This document shows, piece after piece, positions 3,718 through 64,000 of a stretch of 64,000 nucleotides of DNA. Source of the DNA: Cloeon dipterum (Eukaryota; Arthropoda; Insecta; Ephemeroptera; Baetidae); NCBI RefSeq assembly GCF_949628265.1, contig NC_088790.1:1554545-1618544 (forward strand). Direction: 5' to 3'. Position numbers and translations under genes: made by a program. Numbering within the stretch: position 1 is the first letter of the stretch; each line of letters begins with the position of its first letter. The notes under the pieces are model-generated. The model ran no database searches. It saw only the letters and a program-made list of their open reading frames with translations, and was not told where the DNA came from.

Positions 3718-8432
<4,715 letters not shown>

Positions 8433-8449
8433 AATGATTTCGAAACTTT

Positions 8450-8568
8450 CGCTGCGACTAGAGGTCTGAGCCACCCAATTTTTGTCGGCTGCTGTCCTAA
8501 ATCTCGCGGCTGGCGCGGCTCGCAAAAACTGGCGGCGCGGCTCGCTCAGACCTCTAGCTGCGACAAAC
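8450..8568. repeat. GC-rich imperfect hairpin beside the TG tract
   Basis: CTAGAGGTCTGAGC at about 8459-8472 is answered by GCTCAGACCTCTAG at about 8546-8559, a 14-bp perfect stem. The loop of about 73 nt is rich in CGGCTGGCGCGGCT motifs. Similar CGGCTGGC-rich sequence occurs near 46790-46870 and 48040-48160, suggesting a small GC-rich repeat family. Confidence 0.6.
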
Positions 8569-12874: not shown

Positions 12875-14030
12875 ACGCATCACGGGGAGGGCGTAACGCG
12901 TCACGGGCTGGTCGTCGGGCGTCACGGGCTGGTCGTTAGGCGTCACGGGGAGTGTCACGCGTCACGGGGAGGGCGTCACGCGTCACGGGCTGGTCGTCAC
13001 GCATCACGGGGAGGTTATTGTCACGCGTCACGGGGAGGGGGTCTCGCATCACGGGCTGGTCGTCACGCATCACGGGGAGAGCGTCTTGCGTCACGGGCTG
13101 GTCGTCACGCGTCACGGGGAGGGCATTACGCAACACGGGGAGGGCGTCACGCGTAACGGGATGGCGTCGCACGTCACGGGGAGAGCGTTGCGCGTCACGG
13201 GGAGGGCATTACGCATCACGGGGTGGGTGTCGCGCGTCACGGGGAGGGCGTCACGCGTGATGCCGCATCACGGGGAGGGCATTACGCATCACGGGGTGGG
13301 CGTTGCGCGTCACGGGGAGGGCATTACGCATCACGGGGAGGGCGTCACGCATAACGGGATGGCGTCACACGTCACGGGTTGGGCGTCGCGCGTCACGGGG
13401 AGGGCGTCACGCATCACGGGGTGGGCGTCGCGCGTCACGGGGAGGGCATTACGCATCATGGGGTGGGCGTCGCGCGTCACGGGGAGGGCGTCACGCATCA
13501 TGGGGTGGGCGTCACGCGTCACGGGGAGGGCGTCACGCATCACGGGGTGGTCGTTACGCTTAACGGGGAGGGCATTACGCATCACGGGGAGGACGTCACG
13601 CATCACGGGGTGGGCGTCGCACGTCACGGGGTGGGCGTCGCGCGTCACGGGGAGGGAATTACGCATCACGGGGTGGGCGTTGCGCGTCACGGGGAGGGCG
13701 TCATGCGTCACGGGGAGGGCCACGCTCGTCACGGGGTGGGCGTCGCGCGTCACGGGGAGGGCGTATTTCGTCACGGGGATGGCGTCGCACGTCACGGGCT
13801 GGTCGTCACGCATCACGGTCTGGTCGTCACGCGTCACGGGGAGGACATCACGCGTCACGGGGAGGGCGTTACGCGTCACCGTAAAGGTGTCACGCGTTAT
13901 AGGAAAGGCGTCACGCGTCACCGTAAAGGCGTCACGCGTCACCGTTAAAGCGTCACGCGTCACAGGAATGGCGTCACGCGTCTCGGGTAAAGCGTCATGC
14001 GATGGCTGTCTTGTCGCGTCTCCAAGGAAA
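12875..14030. repeat. CpG-rich 21-bp minisatellite (about 55 units)
   Basis: The unit is close to GCGTCACGCGTCACGGGGAGG, with variant last segments GGGCTGG, GGGGTGG and, near the right end, GTAAAGG. A 21-bp period is a multiple of three, so frames stay open on both strands: heptads like VTGRASR on plus and PVTRDAL on minus. The long ORFs here are explained by that and are not listed as genes. CpG and ACGCGT density is far above the surroundings. Confidence 0.95.
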
Positions 14031-15476
14031 AAATAAAGCTTTTTAAATTCCATGTCCGGCTGTCGCGTGCGGTGTCTGCGATAAAAGAATTAGTAATGTC
14101 GATTTTTTTAAAATCTGGATTAAAGTCGAAAACGCGGGAGGCGAACTAAATAGCATTATAACTCGTGACGATCAGCGTATGGAGTTTGATAGTTTTTGTT
14201 AGTAATGGACAATCTTGCCATGGATACATTCAGCATTTTAGTTTTTAGTTTATCGTTTATATTTATTTTGAGCCAATATGTACAGGGGCGACTCATTAAA
14301 ATACGTCAATCTTATCCTAAATATACAAACTAAAGACTATTGTTAACATTACAGTAGAGACAAGTTAAGTTAGTTAAGATACAAATGGTGTTTTGTGATT
14401 TTTAATAGGGTTGGTCCATCCCCTATCTCAGATAATTTATATATTTAATTCTACAGTTGATACAACATAGAAATTAATATCGTTTCGCTTTGGCAGCGGG
14501 GATAGTTTGTCAGGTTTTTGACGAGCTTCAAACAGCCGAACCTAAAGTAAATGTGTCAACGGCGAGTGGCATCTCGCAAACGACTACCAAAAGACGGTTA
14601 ACCTCGCTGAAATGACCGACAAGCAGTACCAGGAGACCACCGGCACCCTCAGGTACTAATCAAACAATTTTTAACATACATAGAACAATAAAGTTTTTTG
14701 AAACCAGAGCTAAATAAGTGATGGCGAAAGTTTAATTTGAAAAAGTGTGGTCATCATGCTGAACAGAATAGCTTTGAACGAGAACAAAATTGGCATCAGT
14801 TATTTGCGCAGTTGGCACATTTGGATGGTGGCGACAGAATTCTTACCGAGTACCTCAGTTTCGCCACGTAAGAGTTGCTGTTAATAGCCAGACCACGAAA
14901 CCCTGTGTCAAAAGACGCCGTTTAATGAATTTCTCGCTCAATCGCTAGCCGTAGTTGAACGCAAATTTTATTTCAAAGCTCCTTAACTCTAGGAAATTTT
15001 TCAAAATTGGTTTGACAAGAAATAGTGTTTAATTAGTTATTGCCGCGTTTTTAATAATTTAAATCTTTTGTTATTTTTGTAAAAATTGAGGTAGTAATTC
15101 TGCACAATGTGTTCGGATATTGAAACAGTGTTGCTTGGTAAAGATTAATCATCAAATACTGTAAATGCCATCTTTTGTTTTGTGGTAGAAAGGACAAAAT
15201 AAAAAATAATTTTTTTGACCAGCTGCAGATCTGTTTATTTTTAAATTAGAAAATTTTATACGTTTATAGTTTATTGCAATTTGCTCTGAAGAACAGAAGA
15301 TTTCGTTAACGGCCACGTCAATTTTATATACAATTTTGGCTCGACAAAAATTCTGCACCAAAAGTAATTAATAAATTACCTTATAGATATTCAATCAGAA
15401 ATTGAAAATTCTGAAATAGAACTAGTTTTATATACATTGCAAATCTTTAATTGAACAGATACTGATCCAAACTGCA
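14031..15476. other. Intergenic, AT-rich, with one possible tiny gene
   Basis: Apart from the two-exon candidate at 14612-14871 I see no coding or repeat structure. Confidence 0.4.
14612..14871 (+). CDS. Possible two-exon small protein (46 aa or truncated gene)
   Basis: ATG at 14612 opens MTDKQYQETTGTL. A GT donor after 14652 and an AG acceptor before 14772 join in phase 2 to give SFEREQNWHQLFAQLAHLDG and then DRILTEYLSFAT. The frame stops at 14871; alternatively a donor after 14867 (GTAAGA) leads to exons I could not find. The peptide is hydrophilic and helix-like, and no family is recognised. It may be the 5' end of a broken gene. Confidence 0.3.
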
Positions 15477-26211: not shown

Positions 26212-27640
26212 TATAGCTTTTATTAAACACATATTGTGTGCTACATACATATTAAAAATACATTAAACAAGTAAATAAGTCATTTTGTCACATAATTTGC
26301 TGCCTGCGAGAGGCTAAGATCATTTTTATCACAGCTCAGGAAATGGTAAAAGTCGATCACTTTATAATAGCTATTATTAAACACTTATTGTGTGCTACAT
26401 ACATATTAAAAATACATTAAACAAGTAAGTAAGTCATTTTGTCACAAATTTGCTGCCTGCGAGAGGCTAAGATCATTTTTATCACAGCTCAGGAAATGGT
26501 AAAAGTCGATCTCTTTATCACAGAGCTTGCAAACGCACTCTTTCGTGGCACTGGTGTGGTAGATTTTTCTCTTGCACAACAAGAAGTGGAATCCGTGGCA
26601 GGCGTGCCTCGTGAGTGCGTGCCTCATTGTGTAGCACACGTTTTTCCAGCTTTGTTCGACCATTGCAGGGGAACCGTAAAATGCCGGATCGATCTCGGAA
26701 ATCTTAAACAGCTGATTGTCAATGAATTTATCGAACGTAGGAGACTCTGGCAGCGAAAATTGAGACGCAAGCTTCTCAATGAAAAATTCTGAGTCGGCCA
26801 ACTCATATGCAAGTCTGGATTTCATGAACTTGGACAGGCAAAGCGCTTTTTTGAGAAACCTGGATTGGGCAGACAGCTGGGCTTCCTGAAACAGCTGACC
26901 ATTTATTGGGGTGGAAATTAGAGAGGTCGTATCATTGGCATAATTGACAGTGAAACCAATCGTCACGTGAAGCAACAAATCAACTACTGCGCCAACAAAG
27001 AGGGTGGGTGACAACACACCTCCCTGCGTACTGCGGAGTCCCTCGGACGACAGGCAACTCGCGAGAGAACACAATCCTATTCAATTTCCCCAGTTTCAGG
27101 CAGCTTAACACCTAGTGTCCGATTGAATAAAGCTGACTGCAGGAAATCCAGTGCTTTACCTCGCACACCACAATTCTGAAACGTCTCTAGCACTATTGGC
27201 TAACAAACGGTTCCAAACGCATTTGACAAATTATAATAAATTTCAAGATTCTTCTATCCACTTTCCATCTTTTCATGAAGAAATTCAAACAACGCTGTCG
27301 CGTACAAAACCATGCTGGTTTGATGGCATCATCTTATGTGCCTCGAAAAAATTTGTTAACCTAATCAGGAATACATTTTCAACAATTTTTGAGAATTTTG
27401 GCAAATTAGCAATTAGTCGGTAATTTTTGACACTATCACGCACTCCTTTCTTAAACAATAGCGTCACAACCGAATTTTTTAGCAAATGCGGATACACACC
27501 TGTAGCAAAGGCACAATTTATCACATCCGCAAGAGGAGCAGCAATTTGAAGCGCAACGACACGCTTAACCAAAAACATCGGTATTTCATCCCAACCTGCA
27601 GCTCTTTTGGCCGGAAGCCGTCTAATATGGAACAAAATTT
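26212..27640 (-). pseudogene. Chimeric LINE relic (RT plus foreign C-terminus)
   Basis: The 27285-27635 frame encodes reverse-transcriptase motifs (AGWDEIPMFLVKRV; LLFKKGVRDSVKNYR; FSKIVENVF) of a Jockey/CR1-like kind. The 26442-27074 frame continues with GGVLSPTLF and YANDTT, a mutated YADD box. It then switches, after about residue 70, to a C-terminus closely matching ORF2 of the 33-37 kb LINE (RFLKKALCLSKFMKSRLAYE; CKLCDKEIDFYHFLSC). The 3' UTR segment is repeated twice at about 26212-26350 and 26368-26500. It is broken by stops and frame changes. Confidence 0.7.
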
Positions 27641-27740: not shown

Positions 27741-28200
27741 TCAATGCTCTATTTTTATTTTATTTAACAAAACACTAATGGTGTACAACAGACATAAAAT
27801 ATTACAGTATACTAGCACGCATGAGAGTAAATAATGGGATCTTCTTGCATTCCAAAAAATGTTAATCACATAATACACATTTACAATCGACACAGGACTT
27901 ACAATGATATTTCTTACGAGTACAGAGTAAATATAATGATAGTCGTGATAGGCGTGCCTGGTGAAAACATGTCTATTTTGAAAACAGGCATTTTTCCAGC
28001 CCGGATCGCCCATTGTAGAGGTGGCATAAAAAACCCCCATCGATCTGGGAGAGCTTGTAAAATCTATTATTACTATTGTAACCAGCAGTTTCTGGAAGTG
28101 AAAATTTCTTTAGAAGATCATCAACCAAAATTTCAGTGTCAGCCAGCTCATATGCCAGTCCGGATTTCATGAATTTTGACAGTGCTAAGAAAATTTTTTG
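27741..28200 (-). mobile_element. LINE 3' fragment
   Basis: Contains the C-terminal ORF2 stretch MKSGLAYELADTEILVDDLL and NRHVFTRHA, plus the 3' UTR with the terminal hairpin at 27772-27784, in the minus orientation. Frames are broken. Confidence 0.65.
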
Positions 28201-28589
28201 AGAAAACGAGTTTTTGCAGTTTCAAACTTATTTAAGTCGGTCAAAGTAAGATATGGCTAGATTGCCTTATGCCGTAACATAGTGATTCGTGCTATGGCTA
28301 AGTGAAAGAGCTCTAATGCTTTGTAGCGGATCAATGCTCTTTAGCGGTTTATGTTCCCACGCAATTTACTTAACACAATCGTGTCATTAGTAGACTTCAT
28401 GCTTTATTTTTAAACTGTGCATGACTTTTAGGATATGGGCTGAAAATAATTATGTAAGAAAACATATTTATGCATGCATGTTTTATATTATCGCTACAAG
28501 GCAGCATTTTAGAATGTATAACTACAGTCAATTGTGTGATATGTAGCATTTGGCACTTACGCTTTCAAAAGGTTCATCGTGCAAGCAAT

Positions 28590-31790: not shown

Positions 31791-33301
31791 CCCTGTAAAA
31801 AAGGCAATTTTTGGAATTTTTACCTAGTATTTTAGGGTCCAACTTAGATCCCCTAGGGCAACATCTCCACCGAATTTCATCAAGATCTGATGACCACTTG
31901 CCAAAGAGGGTGTCATTATATTTAGATCCTTCCATTTAGCACATTTAATGGTTCTTAAACATTTTTAGAAACATGTTTTCATGGCTCTACTCTAATTGTA
32001 TATTTCGTTTAGGACGGTTGCAACGAATGAATGATTAACAGATAACTTTTGACAAGAATGATAATAAATGTATATATTCAGTATGTCCTCTTAAAAAGTC
32101 AACACCATATGTAGCACCGTTTGGCACTTGGCACGGCGGGTGGATTTTTAGGCACATCGCGATTTCCTTTCGTTGAGGCGGTGGCTGCTGATGCTGAATC
32201 GACCGAAAGGCACGATATAAGTGATTGCGCCGGAAAATCTGCAAAAAGTCAGGAACCGGATCTCACGTCACGCGACCCGAGCGGAAGGTCGGTGAAGGGC
32301 AAGGATTCAAATAAAAAAAGCTTCTAAGCATTATTATTAATCTTAATTTGTCTTTTGGCATGTACCCAATTCAACACAATTAAATGCACCAAACCACATA
32401 CATCAAATTACAAATCAAACATACAGTTACATTCATTAAAAAAAATAATAAGTTGCTACAACTTCTGTACACATACAAAGATCTAAAATGTGCTCCAAAT
32501 AACTGGAAAAAGAATTAAAATCAACCTTGGAGCTGATCTCAAGTCGCGGGAAACTGGAAAAGGTAGTTTGGCTACATGTCTCGAAAATTCGGAAAAAAGA
32601 CCTTGCAATGAGGGAACGTGGTTGACGATGCGAGGCTCTGTCAAATTTGAATAGAAAGGAAACCATTTAAGTGTGCACTTCACGTATGGCGAATGCAAAA
32701 CAATAGTTAATAATGATATTTCATATTTCTATGGGTGCGGAAAATATCTAAATCGGGATTCTGACCAACTTGTGCGATGTAACAGTTAATAACCGTTTAT
32801 GGGTACATTCGAGAAGAATTGGCGAATTTTGGGACTTGGGACATCACATTTCTTGTAAGGAGAATGCGTAAAAAACAGGTTTTCCGGCCTTTTTATCAAT
32901 GTCCCGCGACTTTAGATCAGCTCCGAGGCCGATTCTAATTTATTTTTCGAATAAGCCGCATTTTTCATCCTTGCCCTTCAACAACCTTCATCGGGTCGCG
33001 CGACCTGCGATCCGGTTTCGGACTGTAATTTGCATATTGGCCGGCGCAATCTCTTATGTCCATGTTCAAACATCGCTCCTATAAACAAAATCCTCTGATT
33101 TGTATAGCTGATTTGCTAATTGACCTACCAATTATGCTGCGGCTTGAGCCCCTCTACAAGCAATTTGCTAGTGCCTTAAAGGACTTTTCGTACTTGCGAA
33201 GTTTTACTCAAAGATAGGATATATTTCTCGTATGTCTAAGAGTGGTAATTGTTGTGTTTGTAACTTGTTAATAAACATGTATTATATAAATTTTTTAATA
33301 T
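31791..33301. other. Repeat-rich intergenic stretch with nested inverted repeats
   Basis: Sequence near 32236-32320 (GATTGCGCCGGAAAATCTGC) returns inverted near 32950-33045. An inner pair lies at about 32515-32555 and 32895-32945 (GAGCTGATCTCAAGTCGCGGG and its complement). A related GGTCACGCGACCTG segment lies at 45840-45990. 32332-32470 is a LINE 3' tail (minus), and 33140-33190 resembles another LINE 3' segment. No gene was recognised. Confidence 0.45.
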
Positions 33302-33319
33302 GAATGAAATATTTATTAA

Positions 33320-33333
33320 ACACCAAAAGGTGT
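33320..33333 (-). promoter_or_regulatory. LINE 3'-terminal hairpin
   Basis: ACACCAAAAGGTGT, a five-base-pair stem with a four-base loop, lies just before the AATAAATATTTCATT end. Counterparts at 2020-2033, 26227-26239 and 27772-27784 have different bases, mostly paired. It is a likely recognition site for the reverse transcriptase, by analogy with other LINEs. Confidence 0.55.
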
Positions 33334-33363
33334 ACAACAGACATAAAATATAGAGTAATTAAA

Positions 33364-36192
33364 TCACATATCAATGCTCGTTTTTGCTTTGGCGGCTTGG
33401 CACAACGTCAGATTGTTCTTAACACATTCAAAAAAATGGTAAAAGTTAATTTGTTTAATATCACAGAATTTGCACTCGCAGTCCTCACTCGCGCAGGAGT
33501 GATAGGTCAATTTATTACAGATCAAATAGTGAAAACCGTGACAAGCGTGTCTCGTGAACATATGTCTGTTAATAAACATGGCTCCCTTCCAATTTTGGTT
33601 GACCATGGCGGGGGTGACGAAAAACCCCGGGTCGATTTCGGAGGCCTTAAAATCCTGGTTAGCCATGAACTTTTTAAATGAATCAGTCTCCGGCAGTGAA
33701 AATCTCGTTTGCAATTCTTTTACAAGGAAATCAGTGTCTGCTAATTTATATGTCAGCCTGGATTTCATTAATTTGGATACGGAAAGAGCTCTTTTTAGAA
33801 ATCTTGATTTGGAGGATTCTAATTTATTTAAGTCTTTGAGATTTAAAAATGGCCAAATCGCCTCTATTCCGTAACTTGCGATTGGAGCTATTGCAAGATT
33901 GAAAAGTTTCAAAGCAGTGCTGACTGATGATCTGGGGAGAGAGTTTAGTTTGGAGGTGGCTAGAATTTAAGCTCTCACTTTTTTCTCAATATGTTTAGAA
34001 AAAGAAATTCCGGAAGACTGAAACGTTACTCCTAAATAGGTAAATTCGGTGACGAAATCGACGACCTCATTTCTCACTACTAATTTGTCAGTTTACTTCA
34101 GCCTCCCTCTACCCTTGTTTCTAAACTTGAGTATGTTGCATTTTGAAAAATTTAATTTGAGCTCTTTTTCCGCTAAGTAGTCAATTAAGCTGGCCATGAA
34201 ATTTTTTAACTCCTCCAAGCAGTTTGAGAGCAGGACCAGATCATCGGCAAACATAATTAATTTGACATTTGGGAAGGTCTGTAAAAGTGCATTAATATCA
34301 GAAATAGCGTAAATGAAAAGAAATGGAGAAATGCTGCCACCCTGCCGAACTCCGTTCGATTGGACAATCGGCTCCGACACTGAAACTCCATCCTGGACAA
34401 CTAGAAAATTTAGGTCCAGCATTTGAGCAATCAAATTGATCTCCTCAAACGTCAATTTCCCAGAATTTAACAATTTTCCAAAGATGGATTTCCTGTCGAT
34501 TGAGTCGAAAGCCTTTCGGACGTCCAAGAAAATAGCATAGAGAGGCATTTTGCGCTCATACACGTTCAGATGTATCTCTTTGATTAGCAATTTTATTGCA
34601 TGAATAGTTGACTTGCCTTTGACAAAACCATACTAATTTTCAGGGATGGAATCGATTAAATGCGAATAGAGGCGGTTATTTAACACCCTGTCCAGTAAGT
34701 TGTAGAGCGAGCAGCACAAACTAATGCCTCTATAGTTATTCACGTCCGAGACACTGCCCTTTCCCTTGTACAAAAGCCTCAAACTGGACGTTCTCCAAGC
34801 GACTGGGAACTTACCCAGCTCGAGGCAGGCATTCAGGAAAGACAGTATCTCGTCCGGAATAACCAGCCACAAGAATTTGAGTGTCTCGTTCGACAAATTA
34901 TCCGGACCAGGAGCTTTCTTATTCTTCATATTTTTTATAGCAAGTTCTACTTCCTCTTTCATGAAATAATTAAGATCTATGCTCCTGGGATACTTTTCCA
35001 ACAGATATTGCAGGCCAAGGCTGTCGTTCTGCCCCAAATCTCTGACGTTGAATAGCTCTCCCAAGTACTGTGTCCACGTGTCCAGATTGACATCATTGGC
35101 CACGTAATTAAGATTTCGACCATTCAACCTCAGAAATCTGTAACAATTCTCCTCCGCCTCACCTAAAATCCTTTGGTCATGTTTTTCTTGGAATTCAGAC
35201 TTTTTCCTATTACACAATTTTCGATACTCTCCTTTTGCATTCAGAAATATTTTTAAAATTTCATTCCTTTCCTCTTGAGTTCCATCCCCTAACAATGAGG
35301 ACCCCGCTAGCGCTCTCAAAAATGTAAGATCTTGGCGAAAGATAAAGCACTCTGAGTCAAACCAAGGCCGACTCAGCCTGCCCCTTTCACCTGGCGCTGT
35401 TATCCTAGAACGTTCAACTAGTTGTAAAATATTATTATAAAAATTATCAAGGTCCTCATTGTGCAAATCAGCTTTTAGAATTATTTTATAACTTAAGAGG
35501 AAGTTTTCTAGTAAATCGTGATCTAATTTATACTTAATTTGGGTGGCAGCTTTTAAACTATTTTCTCCCGACTTAGGCACCTCCAAAATTGAACAGACCA
35601 TGCTATGCTTTCTAAAAAAAGTATCAATTAATAAAAATTCAGTGCATTTAACTGACTGGCCACAGAGAATTAAATCAATTACACTAGCTCCATTGGCGCA
35701 AACATAAGTATTTTGCAGAGGAAAGGTGTTGGCAAGGTGGAGATTATTAAGGCTAAGAAAGTCGTAAATTACTTCTCCTTTGTTGCACTTTTTGTCTAAC
35801 CTACAATTAAAGTCGCCTGCAAAAATTACTCTATCAGCATTTTTAATGAATTGCAAAGTTTCTATTAATTCATCCCAAATGTCTGCAGACTGTAATTCTG
35901 GATTTAAATATGTGGCCACAATTGTGAAACCGGAGAAGTTCAAAATTAAAAAGTTTCTAAGCTCATGACAGTCAATTAGAACCCCCAATCTCGGCCCGTA
36001 GTAAATCGACAAACCCCGCATAGGCCGCCCTCTGTTGGCTTTAGAACCTAATTTATATTTACAATAAAATCCCCTTATCGAGAGGTTTTTCAGCAAAAAT
36101 GTCTCAGTAAAAATAAGTACATCGAATTTAGAAATAAATTTGTCGTCAATTAAGTTGATCACATTTCTGAGACCCTCTGCATTCCACAGCAT
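33364..36192 (-). pseudogene. LINE ORF2: endonuclease-reverse transcriptase, three nonsense codons
   Basis: A single frame of 943 codons with no frameshift, interrupted by stops at 34633 (TAG, apparently from CAG), 34093 (TAA) and 33967 (TAA). Residues 1-210 form the endonuclease: WNAEGL, GDFNCRLD, SVIDLIL, and RKH where SDH is usual, so one catalytic Asp may be missing. The reverse transcriptase follows, with KKAPGPDNLSNE, NNYRGISL, then FLDVRKAFDS, GVRQGGSISPFLF and the catalytic FADD. The C-terminus has a zinc-knuckle-like CECKFC...H-FFE-C. Its start lies 29 bp after the ORF1 stop, which hints at reinitiation. Confidence 0.85.
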
Positions 36193-36221
36193 AACTTTTA
36201 AGGAATCGATTTTGGGGGGAT

Positions 36222-37448
36222 TTAGAAATTTGATAACTTAGCCTTATTGGCAGCTGCCTGCCTCGTCATCGGCCTCTTGCCAGGCTTGTCAGGGGCTCTT
36301 GAGGGCCCTGGTCGCACTTCTTCGTCATCATCAGCACTCTCCTCCATTGCATCGTCATAGTCGGTTGTCGCCCCCACTTCCGCTTCGTTCTCGTCCTCGA
36401 GCAGATGCTCGCCGAGAGGCTGGGCCTCATCGTTTGGGTTAAGTTTAGAGGCGGTCTGGGACGCCGATTGCTTGCTCTTCCTCGAAGGGAGATGGTAGAC
36501 ATGGGCTTCGATCTTGTATGGCATGGACTGGCAGCGCCTTTGGAGTTGTTCCTTGACCCAGTCCCACGAGAGTCCATCGAGTCCGGCGCAGATGCGCGGC
36601 ATAGCGAACTTCTTGATGTTGTTGTCTGCCAGATATTGGGCAAATTTGTCGAAGGCCACGTGGGTGCTTTCGAGAAAGGCCTCCGGCTTCTTCCTGAGCT
36701 TATGTGGGGCGGCTTGCTTGGTCACCAGGCTGAGCAGCCTTCCAAGGTCACCCGCCTCTTGGACGATGACGTCACCGATCTGGACTGGCTCTGAGGTTGC
36801 TGGTGGTTTCCCGAACCGCGCTGCACACTGACCGGCAACTCCGAGCTCGCAGCGTCGGTCTGCCGAGATCGCTTGCACGATGACGCCTTCCTGGGCTGAA
36901 AACAGATTGGCCTCTTTTTCTACAAAGGAAAGCTTACTCTTTTTTGCTTTGCTGGGACCTTTGCCCTCTGCAAGCCTTTTTCTGCTCTCCAGGTAGTCGT
37001 TTGTCAGTGGGGTGTCCGTGCCCGGCGTCAGCTCAGGGAATTTGCGCCACGGAGGGCGTTGGGCCCGCGCGCGGGGCTGTGGTGGGTTGCGTGCCAGGGC
37101 CGTTTCCAGCGCCGCCTCCGTGCGCGAAAGTCTTTCCTCGAGCCTTTTCTCGCGTGAGTCGGCGGCTTCAAGGAGTCTCTCGTAATGCCTCTCCCGGTTG
37201 TCTGCAGCCTCTAGTAGTTTGTCGTACCTCTGGATGATGGCTCGCAGAGACTCTACTGGTCCGTCTTCTAGGTTAGCAGTTTGCATGCGGCCGAACGTGC
37301 CGGACGCGCCGGCACGTGGGGGCGGTTTGCTAGGTGCAAAGTCTCTTGGCAGGCGCATCGTGGCTGCCGTGGCCGCTGAATAGGTCCTTGGGCTACCCTG
37401 TTGCCCGCCTCTACGCCGCGAGTTAGTCCCTGAGTTCGGCGACATCAC
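36222..37448 (-). CDS. LINE ORF1 with coiled coil and TARG1/OARD1-like macrodomain, 408 aa
   Basis: Intact frame from ATG at 37448. Residues 1-60 are basic and disordered. Residues 62-120 are a heptad-like coiled coil (YDKLLEAADNRERHYERLLE). Residues 174-320 form a macrodomain of the OARD1/TARG1 type: NLFSAQEGVIVQAIS, the glycine-containing segment RCELGVAGQCAARFG, LVTKQAAPHK, and FAMPRICAGLDGLSWDWVKE. The Lys of LVTK (K244) and the Asp of GLD (D291) sit where human TARG1 has catalytic K84 and D125, so ADP-ribosyl hydrolase activity is plausible. The tail (330-408) is acidic then basic, typical of a nucleic-acid or nuclear targeting region. LINE ORF1 proteins usually bind RNA; no RRM or zinc knuckle is seen here. 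Family match is strong; activity is inference. Confidence 0.85.
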   Translation of the reverse strand: MMSPNSGTNSRRRGGQQGSPRTYSAATAATMRLPRDFAPSKPPPRAGASGTFGRMQTANLEDGPVESLRAIIQRYDKLLEAADNRERHYERLLEAADSREKRLEERLSRTEAALETALARNPPQPRARAQRPPWRKFPELTPGTDTPLTNDYLESRKRLAEGKGPSKAKKSKLSFVEKEANLFSAQEGVIVQAISADRRCELGVAGQCAARFGKPPATSEPVQIGDVIVQEAGDLGRLLSLVTKQAAPHKLRKKPEAFLESTHVAFDKFAQYLADNNIKKFAMPRICAGLDGLSWDWVKEQLQRRCQSMPYKIEAHVYHLPSRKSKQSASQTASKLNPNDEAQPLGEHLLEDENEAEVGATTDYDDAMEESADDDEEVRPGPSRAPDKPGKRPMTRQAAANKAKLSNF

Positions 37449-37722
37449 CTTTAGGTGGCAGCTGCGCTGCTCCCTCTGGCCGGCTGACGTCAGAAAACAG
37501 TGATTTTTCTGCAGGAATTTGTCAGATTTCGCTTTGAAAATCGGGTCCAGGGACGAAATGTCTCAATACAGGGTTGAGGAGACACTTCGCGGCCCTCCTG
37601 GGCCCGACAGTGAACTGAAACAATTCCAAAATCCGGGGAAAAGGGTAAGAAAACTGCAGCTGCTTCGCAACGTGACCGCTTCTTACCTGGCGCTCTGCCC
37701 CTCTTCAAATATTTTTTAATAT

Positions 37723-51638: not shown

Positions 51639-52740
51639 AGTCAGGCCAAAACAAGGGCCGATTCTCTTCTTCAATTTTTTCTTTATAGAAATAAGAGGAA
51701 TATTATTTACGTGTTATTGATGTGTAAAATAGGTGAATTTTTTTCAACGAGATATAGCGATTATGAGTGCGTTACAAAATGACCAAATTTTTTAAAACAT
51801 ACTGATTCAAATATATACATGCACGTTTCTCACTCTGTCAGGAAGACCATACTCCTATTCCGACCCTTTTAAACTCTTGCTTCATTGAATTCATTCGGCA
51901 CACCTGTTCTTCAGCTTGTCACAAAGCGTCTATTAGGAGCGAGGGCGTGGCCGTCTTTGTCGTCGTCTCTGGCTGATTGGCCCGACCAGGTTTTTCATCT
52001 GTCCAGACAAGTTTCTTCCCGCTATCGACCAATCACAGCTCGTTCTGCATTCGGAATGTATGTATGAGGCGATCCATTTTTATTATTTTGCCGCTCATTG
52101 CCTTTTCGATCGTCTATTGTCTATTGTTTCCCGCTAGTTTGGCTGATCCAGCTGATCAAAATTCAGAATTCTTGTGCACGGCGTCACCAAGTTGGAAACG
52201 AATTGACGTGATTTCGAAGGTTTAGTCTTCTTAGAGAGCACCTTTGCCAGCAGGTAATCTTATTTAATCTCTCAAATAATGTGTTGTAGGTGTCTGATCT
52301 AATAGTGGTATGTATGTATGTAATGTAATTTTCGGAAGATGGACGATGGCCCTGCGATGGACACTCAATGTGGGGGACAGTTTAACTACTTTTTACTGAG
52401 TTATTTCGCTGTCCCCCAATCGAAAAACCCGTCATTGCTCGTCCCCCACTTAAAATAATTAATTTAAAATTCAGCTCTAACCCGTAATATGTACATTTAT
52501 TTTATTTGTTGCTTATATCCTTCTCGATTTATTTATATACACATGTATAATGTATGTAACACAAATTTTTCTGGTTCGTTCTCGGCTGGAGTAAAGATGC
52601 GTGACCTATAGTTTTTATTTATTTGATGTCTGGGAATGGAGCAACTGCATGGTTGATTTTTCAACATTTTTTGGCCAGTAACGGCTGTATTTCCACTTCT
52701 TTCTTGTCTAAGAGTAATCAAAACTCTGTTCCTTGCAGTC
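51639..52740. other. Upstream region of the RNase H-like gene
   Basis: CCAAT-type motifs (GGCTGATTGGC at about 51970 and CGACCAATCACAG at about 52025) lie in a GC-richer block of 51920-52060. The rest to the start codon at 52741 is AT-rich and probably 5' UTR or a leader intron. Confidence 0.4.
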
Positions 52741-54160
52741 ATGGGCAAAAAGAAGGCGACAAAGACGGAGGCTGGTGGGCCACAGGCTGCGGCCATCGTG
52801 AAACCTGAAAAGGAAGCGGTGAATCTGAAAAAGCCAGCGCCAAAGAAAAGGAGAAGAATGCAGCTCAAGAGAATTTGCCAGAATTTGCTTGTGGAGCAGA
52901 ACGCCTCATGCAAGCCACGGCCTGAGCCAAAATCGGAGAGCACTGTTGTCACCCAAAAAGAAGAGCGAGAGGAGCTGCTCAGGAAGCTTCGTCAGGGCCA
53001 AGCAGACGCCAAGAAGTGCCTGGCCAACGCCGAAAAGCAACTTCGCAAGGAAAATGAAGCCCTGAAGAGGCTGGACGCTGAAATTTTGGAAATTTCTCGG
53101 ATCCATGAGAATGAGGAGGTTGTTGGCACGCTGCAATTTGATTCGGAAAACCACTGTGTCGTCTCGGTGGACGGATATAGCTCCAAGAGAGGCACTGGAT
53201 TCGGAGTCTTCTTTGGAACAGAGCACAAGCTGTGAGTTCCCAGCGTTCAATTATTAATATTGAGAAATATTTTTCAATGTGAATTTATTCAAAAAAATAA
53301 AGATGATACTCTCGTTCCTGTGACTTTTGCCACCGGAGTTGTTCGTATTAAAAAATACGATATTTTGATTTGCGTGAAACCGAAATAATGTTTGGCGTCA
53401 AAAGGGGGGTAACCGAGGGAATAATACGATATGGTGGTGCACTACGCCCCCTATGAGTGGCATGTCAGCGCCGCCATATTGTATTCCCTCGGTTACCCCC
53501 CTTTCGACGTTGAACATTTTGGTTTCACGCAAATCAAAATATTTAGTATTTTTTAATACGAACTCGGGTGGAAAAAGTCTAAAAGGAACGAGAATATCAG
53601 CTTTTTTTATTAAATCCACATTGAAAAATATTAAACACCAACGCTTATAGTTTAGAATATTTAAATTCTCTTCTTTCAGGAATGTCTCACAGCCTTTTTC
53701 GAAGCGCCCTGATGCCCACTTTGACTCAGTTCTCTATGCTGCCTTTGTTGCTTGTGAAATACTCAAAAAACTAGGTAATCATTTTATATCTGCTCAAAGT
53801 CATAACGCCACCTCTGCTCCAAATTCTGCATGGTCGCTTTAGTTAAAAAATGTAAAATATTAGTGAAAATTAATTCCCTTTTCTATGCGTTTAGGTGTGC
53901 ACAGAATGAGCATCTTCACCTCTTGCAAAGGACTTTATGAAACCATCAAACTGATGAATAAGAACCGGAAAAAGCCAGGGTCCCGTGGTCTCTTCGCCGA
54001 GCTGTGCGTCTCGTTCAAGGACATGAACACAAAAGTGGTATATATATTTGATTTGTGAGATCTCTATTATTTAATTCATTATTGTCATTCTTATTTGTAG
54101 ACAATGGTGGCAATGAATTGCTCCGAAGGATGGAAGCTGGCAAAAAAAGGCGCACCCTGA
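52741..54160 (+). CDS. RNase H1-fold pseudoenzyme with basic N-terminus and coiled coil, 262 aa
   Basis: Exons 52741-53231, 53680-53774, 53895-54037 and 54101-54160 join in phases 2, 1 and 0. The N-terminal 60 residues are Lys-rich (MGKKKATKTEAGG; PKKRRRMQLKR, a likely nuclear signal). Residues 70-120 are a coiled coil (EEREELLRKLRQGQADAKK). From residue 137 an RNase H1-like fold is visible: VVSVDGYSS, GTGFGVFFGTEH, LYAAFVACEILKKLG, RMSIFTSCKGLYETI. Of the DEDD active site only D144 remains; the Glu position is V181, the TDS position is TSC (S205), and the fourth is not evident. It should therefore be catalytically dead but might still bind RNA/DNA hybrids. Intron 1 holds a foldback MITE. Fold call is strong; role is unknown. 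Confidence 0.75.
53305..53600. mobile_element. Foldback MITE in intron 1 of the RNase H-like gene
   Basis: Left arm CTCGTTCC ... GTTCGTATTAAAAAATAC and TTGCGTGAAACC return inverted at the right end (GGTTTCACGCAA; TTTTTTAATACGAACTC; GGAACGAG). Nearly the whole element is palindromic. Confidence 0.8.
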
Positions 54161-61278: not shown

Positions 61279-62953
61279 TTATTTGGCAGTTGCAAGGTGA
61301 GCCAAGCGGAAGGCCTCCTCAACCTGGGCTTTCAGCTCAGGGTCATCGTTGGGCCCGACGCAGGTCTGGTGAAACAAGAAAATCAGTAAAGCAAACAAAA
61401 TATTATTTTGGGAAAACTGAGCTTACCCAGCGCATCTTCATGCCCCACTTGGCTCGACGCAGGTCATATATTGGGCCTAGTCTATTTTCTTTGCGCCTCT
61501 TGATTCCCTTTTTCTCCTCGTTGAACAAAAATTTGGAGGATGTGTGCACGTGCAAGTTGAACACACCTGGAATCAAACATTGCCCTCATTATCAGGGCTA
61601 AAACAATTTACAAATCCAGCCCATACAGGGCAACTTCAAAAAAATCAAAGCAAAATATTCGAAAAATTCAGCACAGTTATTTTGGCGCAAAACCCATTTA
61701 AGCAACAAACGCGTTTTTCGTATTTTCAAGCCGGAAACCGAATTCGGAACAAAAGGACAATAATAATAAATAATTAAAGCCGAAAACATTAAAATAGCTC
61801 AAGATTTGAGGGGGCGTTGGCGACGGCAAACGAGCCCAAATCACGTAGAATTTAATGGCTTTGGATTTTCGCAGTGGAAGCAGAATTGATAATTTTCAAA
61901 GGCGAATAACCATGGATAGCAACAGTTGCCAAATATTGCTTTTGCAGCCACAAATTTTTCGAACCAAATTATCGAAAAAGTCAGAATTTTCAATGATTTC
62001 TACAGGCCATATTTCCAGTCCATGGTAAAAATTTTAAAAAATGGCTTTCCTTATCATGGTTCATTATAAGACTAAATAAAATCCGATCTGACCAAAATCC
62101 GATCTGACCAAAATCCTAATTTTTAACATTCAAAGATGTGATTTCTGCACTTTCTTGAACAGAATTACATGGGAAATAGAAAATACTCTTATATATCTAA
62201 GCACATGTACACGGGACCGACAGTCAAATTTTCAGGTGGGAACCATTGATTATTTTTCTGCCGCGACGGACGCCAACCGAGAGACGGCACGCAAAAAAAT
62301 TTAATCATATGATCTCACCATTCATTTTGGCTACATTGCACGCCAACGTGGCTGCCGCAGCCTCTGCATTATGGATGTACGGCGAGGGGAAAGGCACGCT
62401 CGCGTTCCTGAGTGACATAGTAAGGCAAATCAAGTATTAGAATAATTAACACAATTAAGACTCACCTTGGGTGGTGCAATCCAAAGCTGATACCAACCCC
62501 AGATGCAGCTGCAGTGCAGTATCCAGCCGTGTACACTTTGCAGAAGCTCTTCTCGTCCGGCAAGAAACTCATTGGAATCTGCATTTCTTGGTTTCTTCGG
62601 ACCAGTGGCTCCTCGGCTTGTACTTTGTCCACGCTGGCAAGGGCAGTGTAAATCGTCTGAACCTTGGCCTTCTCCACCCTGACTATTTCCTGCAAGGCTG
62701 CGATACGTACTTTTGTTTCCTTTTGCTGCTGCCGCAATCTCTTCAGCCTGTTCACTCCAACACACTCGAAAACGTTTAGGACTTGCTCAGGCTGACACAT
62801 GCTCGCAGTTTCCACAAAAAGATCCTTCTGCTTCTTTATTCTAACCGGGCGATGCCGTTTTTCATTCGGCTGGCCTCTAGACAAGCCTATGCCCTCTGTG
62901 CCCATAGCAGCAGCAGCAGCTATTTTAGCACTACTGCTCCTCGTGCTAACCAT
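61279..62953 (-). CDS. RNase H1-fold pseudoenzyme with coiled coil, 267 aa
   Basis: Exons 62466-62953, 62319-62407, 61427-61566 and 61279-61365 join in phases 2, 1 and 0, the same plan as the gene at 52.7 kb. The N-terminus is Ala/Ser/basic (MVSTRSSSAK; PVRIKKQK). Residues 65-110 form a coiled coil (RLKRLRQQQKETKVRIAALQ). The RNase H1-like part runs CKVYTAGYC, SGVGISFGLHHP, IHNAEAAAATLACNVAKMNG, FNLHVHTSSKFLFNE, and ends EEAFRLAHLATAK. The first catalytic Asp is A143 and the TDS Asp is S202, while the Glu (E178) is kept. Hydrolysis should be lost. Intron 2 contains the unclassified repeat also found at 45 kb. The upstream block near 63575 has a GCTGATTGGTGC CCAAT-type motif. Confidence 0.75.
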
Positions 62954-64000
62954 CCTGGAAATTTTTTCTCACCTCAATAAAAAATTCAAAGCTAAAATAT
63001 TCAATAAATTTACATAAATCGCTATTATACACATGTTACTTTCCAGTCTCATACTGGATAAAATATTACGAAACCTGATACAAAAGAGGCAATATAATTT
63101 AATTAAATTACCTTTCCCCTATTCTTTCAGGGACAGCTAGAGACGAAGGTCTTAGGTCTGACAGGAATCTTAATAGGTCTTGACGAGAATCGGCACAATC
63201 ATAACAATAACAATGGAGGAGATGAAAAATGTCTGACTGTGTCTAATGACTAATGAATTTATATGATGATGATAGTTAACTCTTGGGAGGGAAATCGGTG
63301 GGGGCGTGGCCTGGATGGTCCGTTTCCGTTCCACGCATTCTCTGTAGCCAGTTTTTATTCTTATGAAAACCGGTATGTACTTAAAACAATTTGGCTTTTT
63401 GAATTAAATCAAGAGGATTTAGTACAAATTTACAAAAAAACTCAATGAGTTGAATTTTTCATTTCAAATCACGAGTTTTGACCGCTTCAAGATCCGAAAC
63501 GTTTTCAAATTGGTACCGGTACATATATGTACGATTAAGAAAGCTTTTTTTCATTCGCTCGTCCTGTTCTTGTTCTCGTCGCTGATTGGTGCGGCTGCGG
63601 CACTGCGGCAGTCACAAAATCACAGAGCAGTCAGAGCTCACAATCAGAGCACAGTGTTGTGACACGAATTGACATAATCCTGAGCGCACTGCGAAATCGT
63701 TATGTCGCTGTTTTCATCTCCAGGTATGCATTTTGCGCATATAATTTGCAGTAATTAGCCCTGATTTATGTTTGTTTATGCATTTTTAATGAAACAGGTA
63801 GATATTCATAAATTTTAAGAACCACGTACATCTTAGCTGTGTTTGCATAATATGCATGTAATGTACATTATGTAATAATAACTATGTAAAATATGATTGG
63901 AAAAAATTACACTTTTCGCCGCCGACAAACAGTTTTTGCCATCCATATTTTCTTATAGAATATCCTCATAAGAATTGGCAAGATGTGTAACCCGGCGGAA
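62954..64000. other. Upstream region of the RNase H-like gene and edge sequence
   Basis: 63290-63310 has GGGGGCGTGGCC (compare GGGCGTGGCC at about 51945), and 63570-63600 has CTGATTGG. The last 40 bp (AAGAATTGGCAAGATGTGTA ACCCGGCGGAA) resemble 58570-58605, a short interspersed repeat. No exon was recognised. Confidence 0.4.

Follow-up and report, generated by a model that had tools for sequence, protein, structure and literature searches.

The closest described relative of the domain reported here is human TARG1 (also OARD1 or C6orf130; PDB 2eee, 4j5r and 4j5s), a free enzyme that, according to passages of two papers, strips mono-ADP-ribose from glutamate and aspartate residues, DNA and RNA, and whose K84A variant fails, in bacteria and in human cells, to undo the ADP-ribosylation of DNA (PMC8501950, PMC11920425). 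Within a 64,000-nucleotide stretch of the Cloeon dipterum genome, which was analysed as a whole and is referred to below as the window, the whole TARG1 domain aligns to a part of the first open reading frame (ORF1) of a LINE, with the equivalents of K84, D125, G43, G53 and G66 kept; unlike the free enzyme, this domain is joined to a coiled coil, linkers and an acidic tail, and it has 24-25% identity to TARG1.

LINE ORF1s have been sorted into types I-V in a survey of 448 Jockey-superfamily elements, and the present ORF1 resembles these types, as they are described in parts of that survey, in occupying the slot ahead of an endonuclease-reverse transcriptase ORF2 and in having been exchanged from lineage to lineage (PMC4120745). 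The words “macro” and “ADP-ribose” are absent from the main text of the survey (PMC4120745). The ORF1 does not belong to types I-IV by an RRM, CCHC, PHD or esterase domain, and a Pfam search of 17 LINE ORF1s at E 0.1 found none of these four. There is a likeness to the type IV ORF1s of CR1/L2 elements such as zebrafish ZfL2-1, which, as passages of one paper describe them, likewise have an enzyme fold beside a coiled coil and an arginine-rich stretch, and no RRM (PMC3905857); however, the CR1/L2 enzyme is an SGNH esterase, whereas the enzyme fold here is a TARG1-type macrodomain, and the two folds are unrelated. Uptake of a macro domain by a retroelement has a parallel in the macro-domain ORFs of fish elements (Basta et al. 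2009, cited in PMC4977317), although these elements are retroviral, carry the domain in an additional ORF rather than in a LINE ORF1, and are of a macro subtype left unstated in the citing passage. No macro-domain LINE appeared among the open-access papers listed by the literature searches; within that scope, this agrees with the original prediction, made from the letters of the window, that a LINE clade with such a layout is not known to have been described. Measured against those papers, the element is a LINE whose ORF1 forms a new class, a second enzyme-bearing one beside the esterase type.

The element and the layout of its ORF1

The features of the element are as follows, in window coordinates.

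33302..37703, minus strand: whole LINE, about 4.4 kb; 5' end GAGGGGCAG common to four copies
37711..37722, minus strand: probable 5' target-site duplication ATATTAAAAAAT, 7 bases before the common 5' end
36222..37445, minus strand: ORF1, intact, 407 aa from the ATG, stop included; frame open upstream to 37562
37080..37265, minus strand: coiled coil, ORF1 residues 61-122; best 28-residue heptad window at residues 71-98
36933..37079, minus strand: basic linker, ORF1 residues 123-171; pI 10.7, 13 K/R and 5 D/E
36480..36932, minus strand: predicted TARG1-type macrodomain, ORF1 residues 172-322
36717..36719, minus strand: K243, equivalent of the TARG1 catalytic K84
36576..36578, minus strand: D290, equivalent of TARG1 D125
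36225..36479, minus strand: acidic tail, ORF1 residues 323-407, pI 4.5
33364..36237, minus strand: ORF2 frame, APE-type endonuclease followed by reverse transcriptase, with three in-frame stops
34633-36237, 34093-34632 and 33364-33966, minus strand: ORF2 pieces in the window copy, with a short piece between
33290..33301, minus strand: probable 3' target-site duplication ATATTAAAAAAT, found by eye, positions checked

Based on blastn alignment, the 5' start of four copies of the LINE falls on the same base within 2, and their flanks differ. The 3' end of the window copy carries a short stretch resembling a hairpin, followed in our description by TAATAAA and a tail of TTCA repeats. We regard the 12-base flanking repeat as only a probable target-site duplication because it was spotted by eye in AT-rich flanks and lies across a 7-base gap from the 5' end.

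Pfam matched Exo_endo_phos_2 (E 8.4e-8) and RVT_1 (E 1.3e-23) in the ORF2 pieces of the window, and endonuclease and reverse-transcriptase matches were also obtained in the ORF2s of L031, L043 and, across two frames, L046. By the endonuclease and reverse transcriptase of its ORF2, the window element is classified as a LINE (non-LTR retrotransposon). When the L031 ORF2 was searched against the PDB, it matched only human L1 ORF2p and 8c8j. The two copies nearest to the window element, at C5:29.9 Mb and C4:0.3 Mb, have ORF1s that are 99% identical to that of the window, an open ORF2 frame of 958 aa, and 97-98% identity over the ORF2 piece compared. A deviant genetic code behind the three stops of the window ORF2 was considered and rejected; the 3' half of the L048 copy is open there. 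When aligned to window positions 33299-37705, L002 and L048 show 98% identity across the 5' 3 kb and 91% across the 3' 1.46 kb, and by these identities their element is a mosaic relative to that of the window.

ORF1 was listed as an open frame at 36222-37448 (minus strand) with GTG as its first codon; the ATG follows directly, which gives a protein of 407 aa and turns the residues earlier numbered K244 and D291 into K243 and D290. The N-terminus is basic, as is the linker, in which a conserved residue, Tyr151, lies ahead of the macrodomain. The heptad pattern of residues 71-98 was equalled by 3 of 500 shuffles. Across nine ORF1s given the same test, six (window, L005, L009, L031, L016 and L046) were equalled by at most 3 of 500 shuffles, and the pattern was weaker in L008 (35/500), L011 (153/500) and L043 (381/500).

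Other parts of the window contain related or repetitive DNA. Three stretches (26445-27080 and 27744-28221 on the minus strand, 1994-2296 on the plus strand) match the ORF2 C-terminus with 49-57% identity and are, by this similarity, relics of related LINEs. Positions 6846-8460 hold about 1.5 kb of almost pure GT/AC dinucleotide repeat that reads open in more than one frame (GC skew 0.61 in the bin), and positions 12897-14089 form a GC-rich, minisatellite-like stretch that is open on both strands, with VTGWASR-like repeats. Two open frames, at 52657-53235 (plus strand) and 62462-62968 (minus strand), share 23% identity over 149 residues (blastp E 8.8e-9); neither has a Pfam match above cut-off.

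Identity and conservation of the macrodomain

The Pfam Macro family (PF01661) matched the window ORF1 with E 0.0037 and 17.6 bits, without reaching its curated cut-off of 22 bits, and it matched 2 of 17 LINE ORF1s at E up to 0.1; Pfam alone would therefore miss the domain. We used phmmer to search the PDB with ORF1, and the top 5 of 11 matches (E up to 1) were human TARG1, with E 5.5e-5 to 7.2e-5. A profile of 16 LINE ORF1 domains from the same genome, built without any TARG1 sequence, matched TARG1 with E 1.7e-26 over positions 15-162 of the 166 in the profile; second among the families listed was 5m31 (E 9.1e-10), which we take to be DarG. A five-sequence profile of the window's own branch also matched TARG1 (E 6.9e-10 to 1e-9), and hhalign with three host TARG1-like genes gave 98.4% probability and E 6.1e-15. 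Identity to TARG1 is 34-41% in one set of LINE domains, the F type (L046, L049 and L054), and 18-28% in the others, the window included. Single-sequence AlphaFold2 gave a mean pLDDT of 42, and homology is carried by the sequence evidence, on which ORF1 carries a TARG1-type macrodomain. Rfam search gave no match, a search of viral contigs with ORF1 found no relative, and an alignment scan of viral contigs gave insufficient conservation.

We aligned 18 LINE rows (window, L005, L008, L009, L011, L016, L019, L020, L031, L032, L035, L038, L039, L043, L044, L046, L049 and L054), some of which, L031 and L032 for instance, are closely related. The K84 equivalent (K243) is Lys in 18/18 rows and is one of 6 invariant columns among 163, with a conservation rank of 5 (tied first); the D125 equivalent (D290), with rank 12, is Asp in 16/18 rows and Glu in two (L011 and L044). 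An earlier alignment of 25 rows, which takes in standalone genes and near-duplicates, had Lys in 25/25 rows at the first position, and Asp in 22 and Glu in 3 at the second. The equivalents of G43, G53 and G66 are kept in 18/18 LINE rows and that of D37 in 14/18. The position of TARG1 D20 is Asn in 8/18 rows, the window among them, and the L031 and L043 lineages have another residue instead of the glycine directly before the catalytic Asp.

The original prediction had proposed a TARG1/OARD1-type macrodomain with both catalytic residues kept and joined to a coiled coil in a LINE ORF1. Sensitive profiles matched TARG1 although Pfam Macro stays under its cut-off, the heptad pattern stands out against shuffles, and the window has both residues, K243 and D290, aligned to K84 and D125; together with the copies described below and with conservation, these results bear out the proposal.

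Purifying selection is concentrated in the macrodomain

We ran dN/dS on 14 pairs; domain dS was saturated in 8, L009/L008 was dropped owing to a wrong domain boundary, and 5 are quoted here. Domain dN/dS was 0.057 for window/L002 (few changes), 0.108 for L031/L032, 0.130 for L031/L020, 0.122 for L016/L019 (dS 2.2, near saturation) and 0.208 for L046/L049. The N-terminal part reached 0.37-0.47 and the tail 0.51-0.71 in L031/L032, L031/L020 and L016/L019, and the tail reached 0.54 in L046/L049, whose N-terminal dS was saturated. The four diverged pairs have dN/dS of 0.11-0.21 in the domain versus 0.37-0.71 in the flanks where measurable, and the flanks of window/L002 are also conserved (0.12-0.14). 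Purifying selection, which had been suggested as a check on the predicted domain, is concentrated in the macrodomain, with domain dN/dS of 0.057-0.208 in the five usable pairs. Against the trend, the N-terminal pN of L043/L035 (0.165) is slightly below that of the domain (0.180).

Two further pairs also depart from the trend. The tails of L031 and L019 are nearly identical (pN 0.048, dS 0.089), whereas their domain dS is saturated, and such mosaic ORF1s suggest that tails have been exchanged too. Within L031/L032, dS is 0.097 in the N-terminal part versus 0.431 in the domain, an inequality which suggests that parts of ORF1 differ in history.

Copies, exchange and possible roles of the macro-ORF1

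A search of the window's own genome (190 Mb, 10 contigs) with ORF1 gave at least 47 matches. At least 29 of 54 5'-complete ORF2 matches, meaning those that begin at query position 50 or before, are preceded by a same-strand macro-ORF1 at a distance of up to 2.5 kb; by ORF2 query, the counts are at least 17 of 36 (36 taken from 81 matches) and at least 12 of 18 (18 taken from 51). All of these counts are minimum values, since the macro-ORF1s come from two ORF1 queries and only the best candidates receive a score in the searches. The remaining 25 of the 54 had no macro match upstream. We read the DNA upstream of three ORF2s without an ORF1 match: one (L049, an element included in the 17 of 36) shows a TARG1-like ORF1 of 517 aa, and the other two gave no macrodomain match in the 3.3 kb (L050 plus L059) and 1.8 kb (L051) that precede them, even at E 1 with filters off. 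Since two of the three inspected ORF2 relatives show no macrodomain in this upstream DNA, the domain is not essential for such LINEs. The macro-ORF1 is part of the element, and the macrodomain is common, not universal, among these LINEs. The question of whether all copies of the family carry the domain therefore receives a divided answer: many copies do, and two of the inspected relatives show none in the DNA that was read. The domain is also spread more widely than was seen in the original prediction, across several diverged ORF1 lineages and two ORF2 groups.

Copies on contigs C1-C5 differ by type in their position. Among L031, L043 and F types, 25/29 copies are at most 2 Mb away from a contig end, versus 10.7% of the sequence; the corresponding counts are 3/4 for window-type copies and 1/12 for those of the L005/L008/L009/L011 type. 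Telomere targeting was considered and is not claimed: on C1, C2, C3 and C5 the copies cluster for the most part at a single end, and duplicates are among them. Searches for telomere repeats, in a mode that passes over simple repeats, gave no match.

Based on ORF2 pieces of 13 loci, the elements split into two groups at 100/100 support, one with the window, L005/L006, L008/L014, L009, L011 and the L049 element, and the other with L031, L035, L043/L047 and L046. L049 and L046 have sister macrodomains (100/98) with 65% identity, whereas their ORF2s, which fall in separate groups, share only one 92-residue stretch with 26% identity; it follows that ORF1 or its domain moved between the groups. A second hint of ORF1 exchange comes from L035, whose domain is sister to that of L043 (99/97) and whose ORF2 piece is nearer to L031 (40%) than to L043 (32%).

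How often a host TARG1 was captured is a question separate from that of mechanism. The F type groups with human TARG1 and the host genes L052, L053, L055 and L056 at 96/96, and forcing all 18 LINE rows into one clade costs 12.8 log-likelihood units (AU p 0.043; AU p 0.074 for 17 LINE rows in a smaller set). These results hint at two or more captures, which are unproven because some rows are long-branched. By comparison, one clade of the LINE rows minus the F type is not rejected (AU p 0.424, and 0.341 in the smaller set), and the order of coil and then macrodomain repeats in most lineages; we give a single ancient capture with fast divergence a little less than an even chance.

As to function, the original prediction had raised two candidate roles, countering PARP defence and processing ADP-ribosylated ends. 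We lean towards the reading that the LINE ORF1 acts through a TARG1-type hydrolase, clearing ADP-ribose from its own particle or from the insertion site. ORF1 would be a coiled-coil assembly factor with basic linkers, in which the macrodomain replaces an RRM, zinc-knuckle, PHD or esterase domain. The protein would travel with the element RNA and work as an ADP-ribosyl-hydrolase, with Lys243 forming a lysyl-ADP-ribose intermediate together with Asp290, as TARG1 does with Lys84 and Asp125. Its target would be mono-ADP-ribose placed by host PARPs on the element's proteins, on its RNA or on the DNA ends where it inserts, and removal would keep the particle or the insertion from being blocked. Catalytic activity, substrate, benefit to the element and RNA binding are the parts of this reading that we infer; the retention of the catalytic Lys over many diverged copies suggests that the element uses the domain in the course of the cell's ADP-ribose signalling or to oppose it. 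Among RNA viruses, some have macrodomains that reverse PARP-based defence. For human L1, passages of two papers place PARP1 and PARP2 among the genes necessary for integration and report that SIRT6 mono-ADP-ribosylates KAP1, thereby silencing L1 (PMC10201437, PMC4695847). An equivalent in a LINE ORF1 would suggest that retrotransposition, too, is restricted by ADP-ribosylation or involves it, and Lys243 is a single residue with which the question can be put directly to test.

Several features of the alignment would argue against a hydrolase, namely Glu at the D125 position in two rows, the loss of the preceding glycine in the L031 and L043 lineages and Asn at the D20 position in eight rows, as would the existence of such LINEs without the domain. 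A bolder form of the hydrolase reading, in which LINEs of the two ORF2 groups captured host TARG1 on more than one occasion, swapped it between groups and erase host PARP marks as a counter-defence, is tentative, and we would give it perhaps a third of our belief. The genome contains 24 PARP-domain matches, counted exon by exon, and the host PARP set is perhaps expanded. Tandem groups of these matches occur at C3:7.54-7.56 Mb and C1:8.32 Mb.

Many macrodomains bind only, and conservation of the fold and pocket could also be explained by binding alone. Such a domain would read rather than erase, binding ADP-ribose or poly-ADP-ribose and bringing the RNP to PARP-marked chromatin or breaks without hydrolysis. 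The altered loop around the catalytic Asp in some lineages fits a reader; yet a pure reader needs no catalytic Lys, and this residue is as constant as the glycines, so we consider this account unlikely. We give slightly less weight again to a structural or RNA-binding module in the place of the RRM, with the pocket kept just for folding: it would suit the 17 ORF1s without an RRM, CCHC, PHD or esterase match and the basic stretches that flank the coil, but the catalytic pair is among the most conserved columns of the alignment. Finally, although standalone TARG1-like genes exist in the genome (the L036 type and L052, L053, L055 and L056), a host gene that landed in or beside a dead LINE copy is refuted as a single-copy insertion by the four copies with one 5' end and differing flanks and by the macro-ORF1s upstream of ORF2s in two groups, and we regard it as extremely improbable.

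The standalone TARG1-like genes include L036 (two copies), L037, L040, L041 and L042, with open frames of 205-282 aa. Within 10-kb regions of standalone genes, ORF2 is matched only once, by a truncated window-type end upstream in L040. The L036-type genes are multi-copy and keep both Lys and Asp, and one group is arranged in tandem, about 4.9 kb apart.
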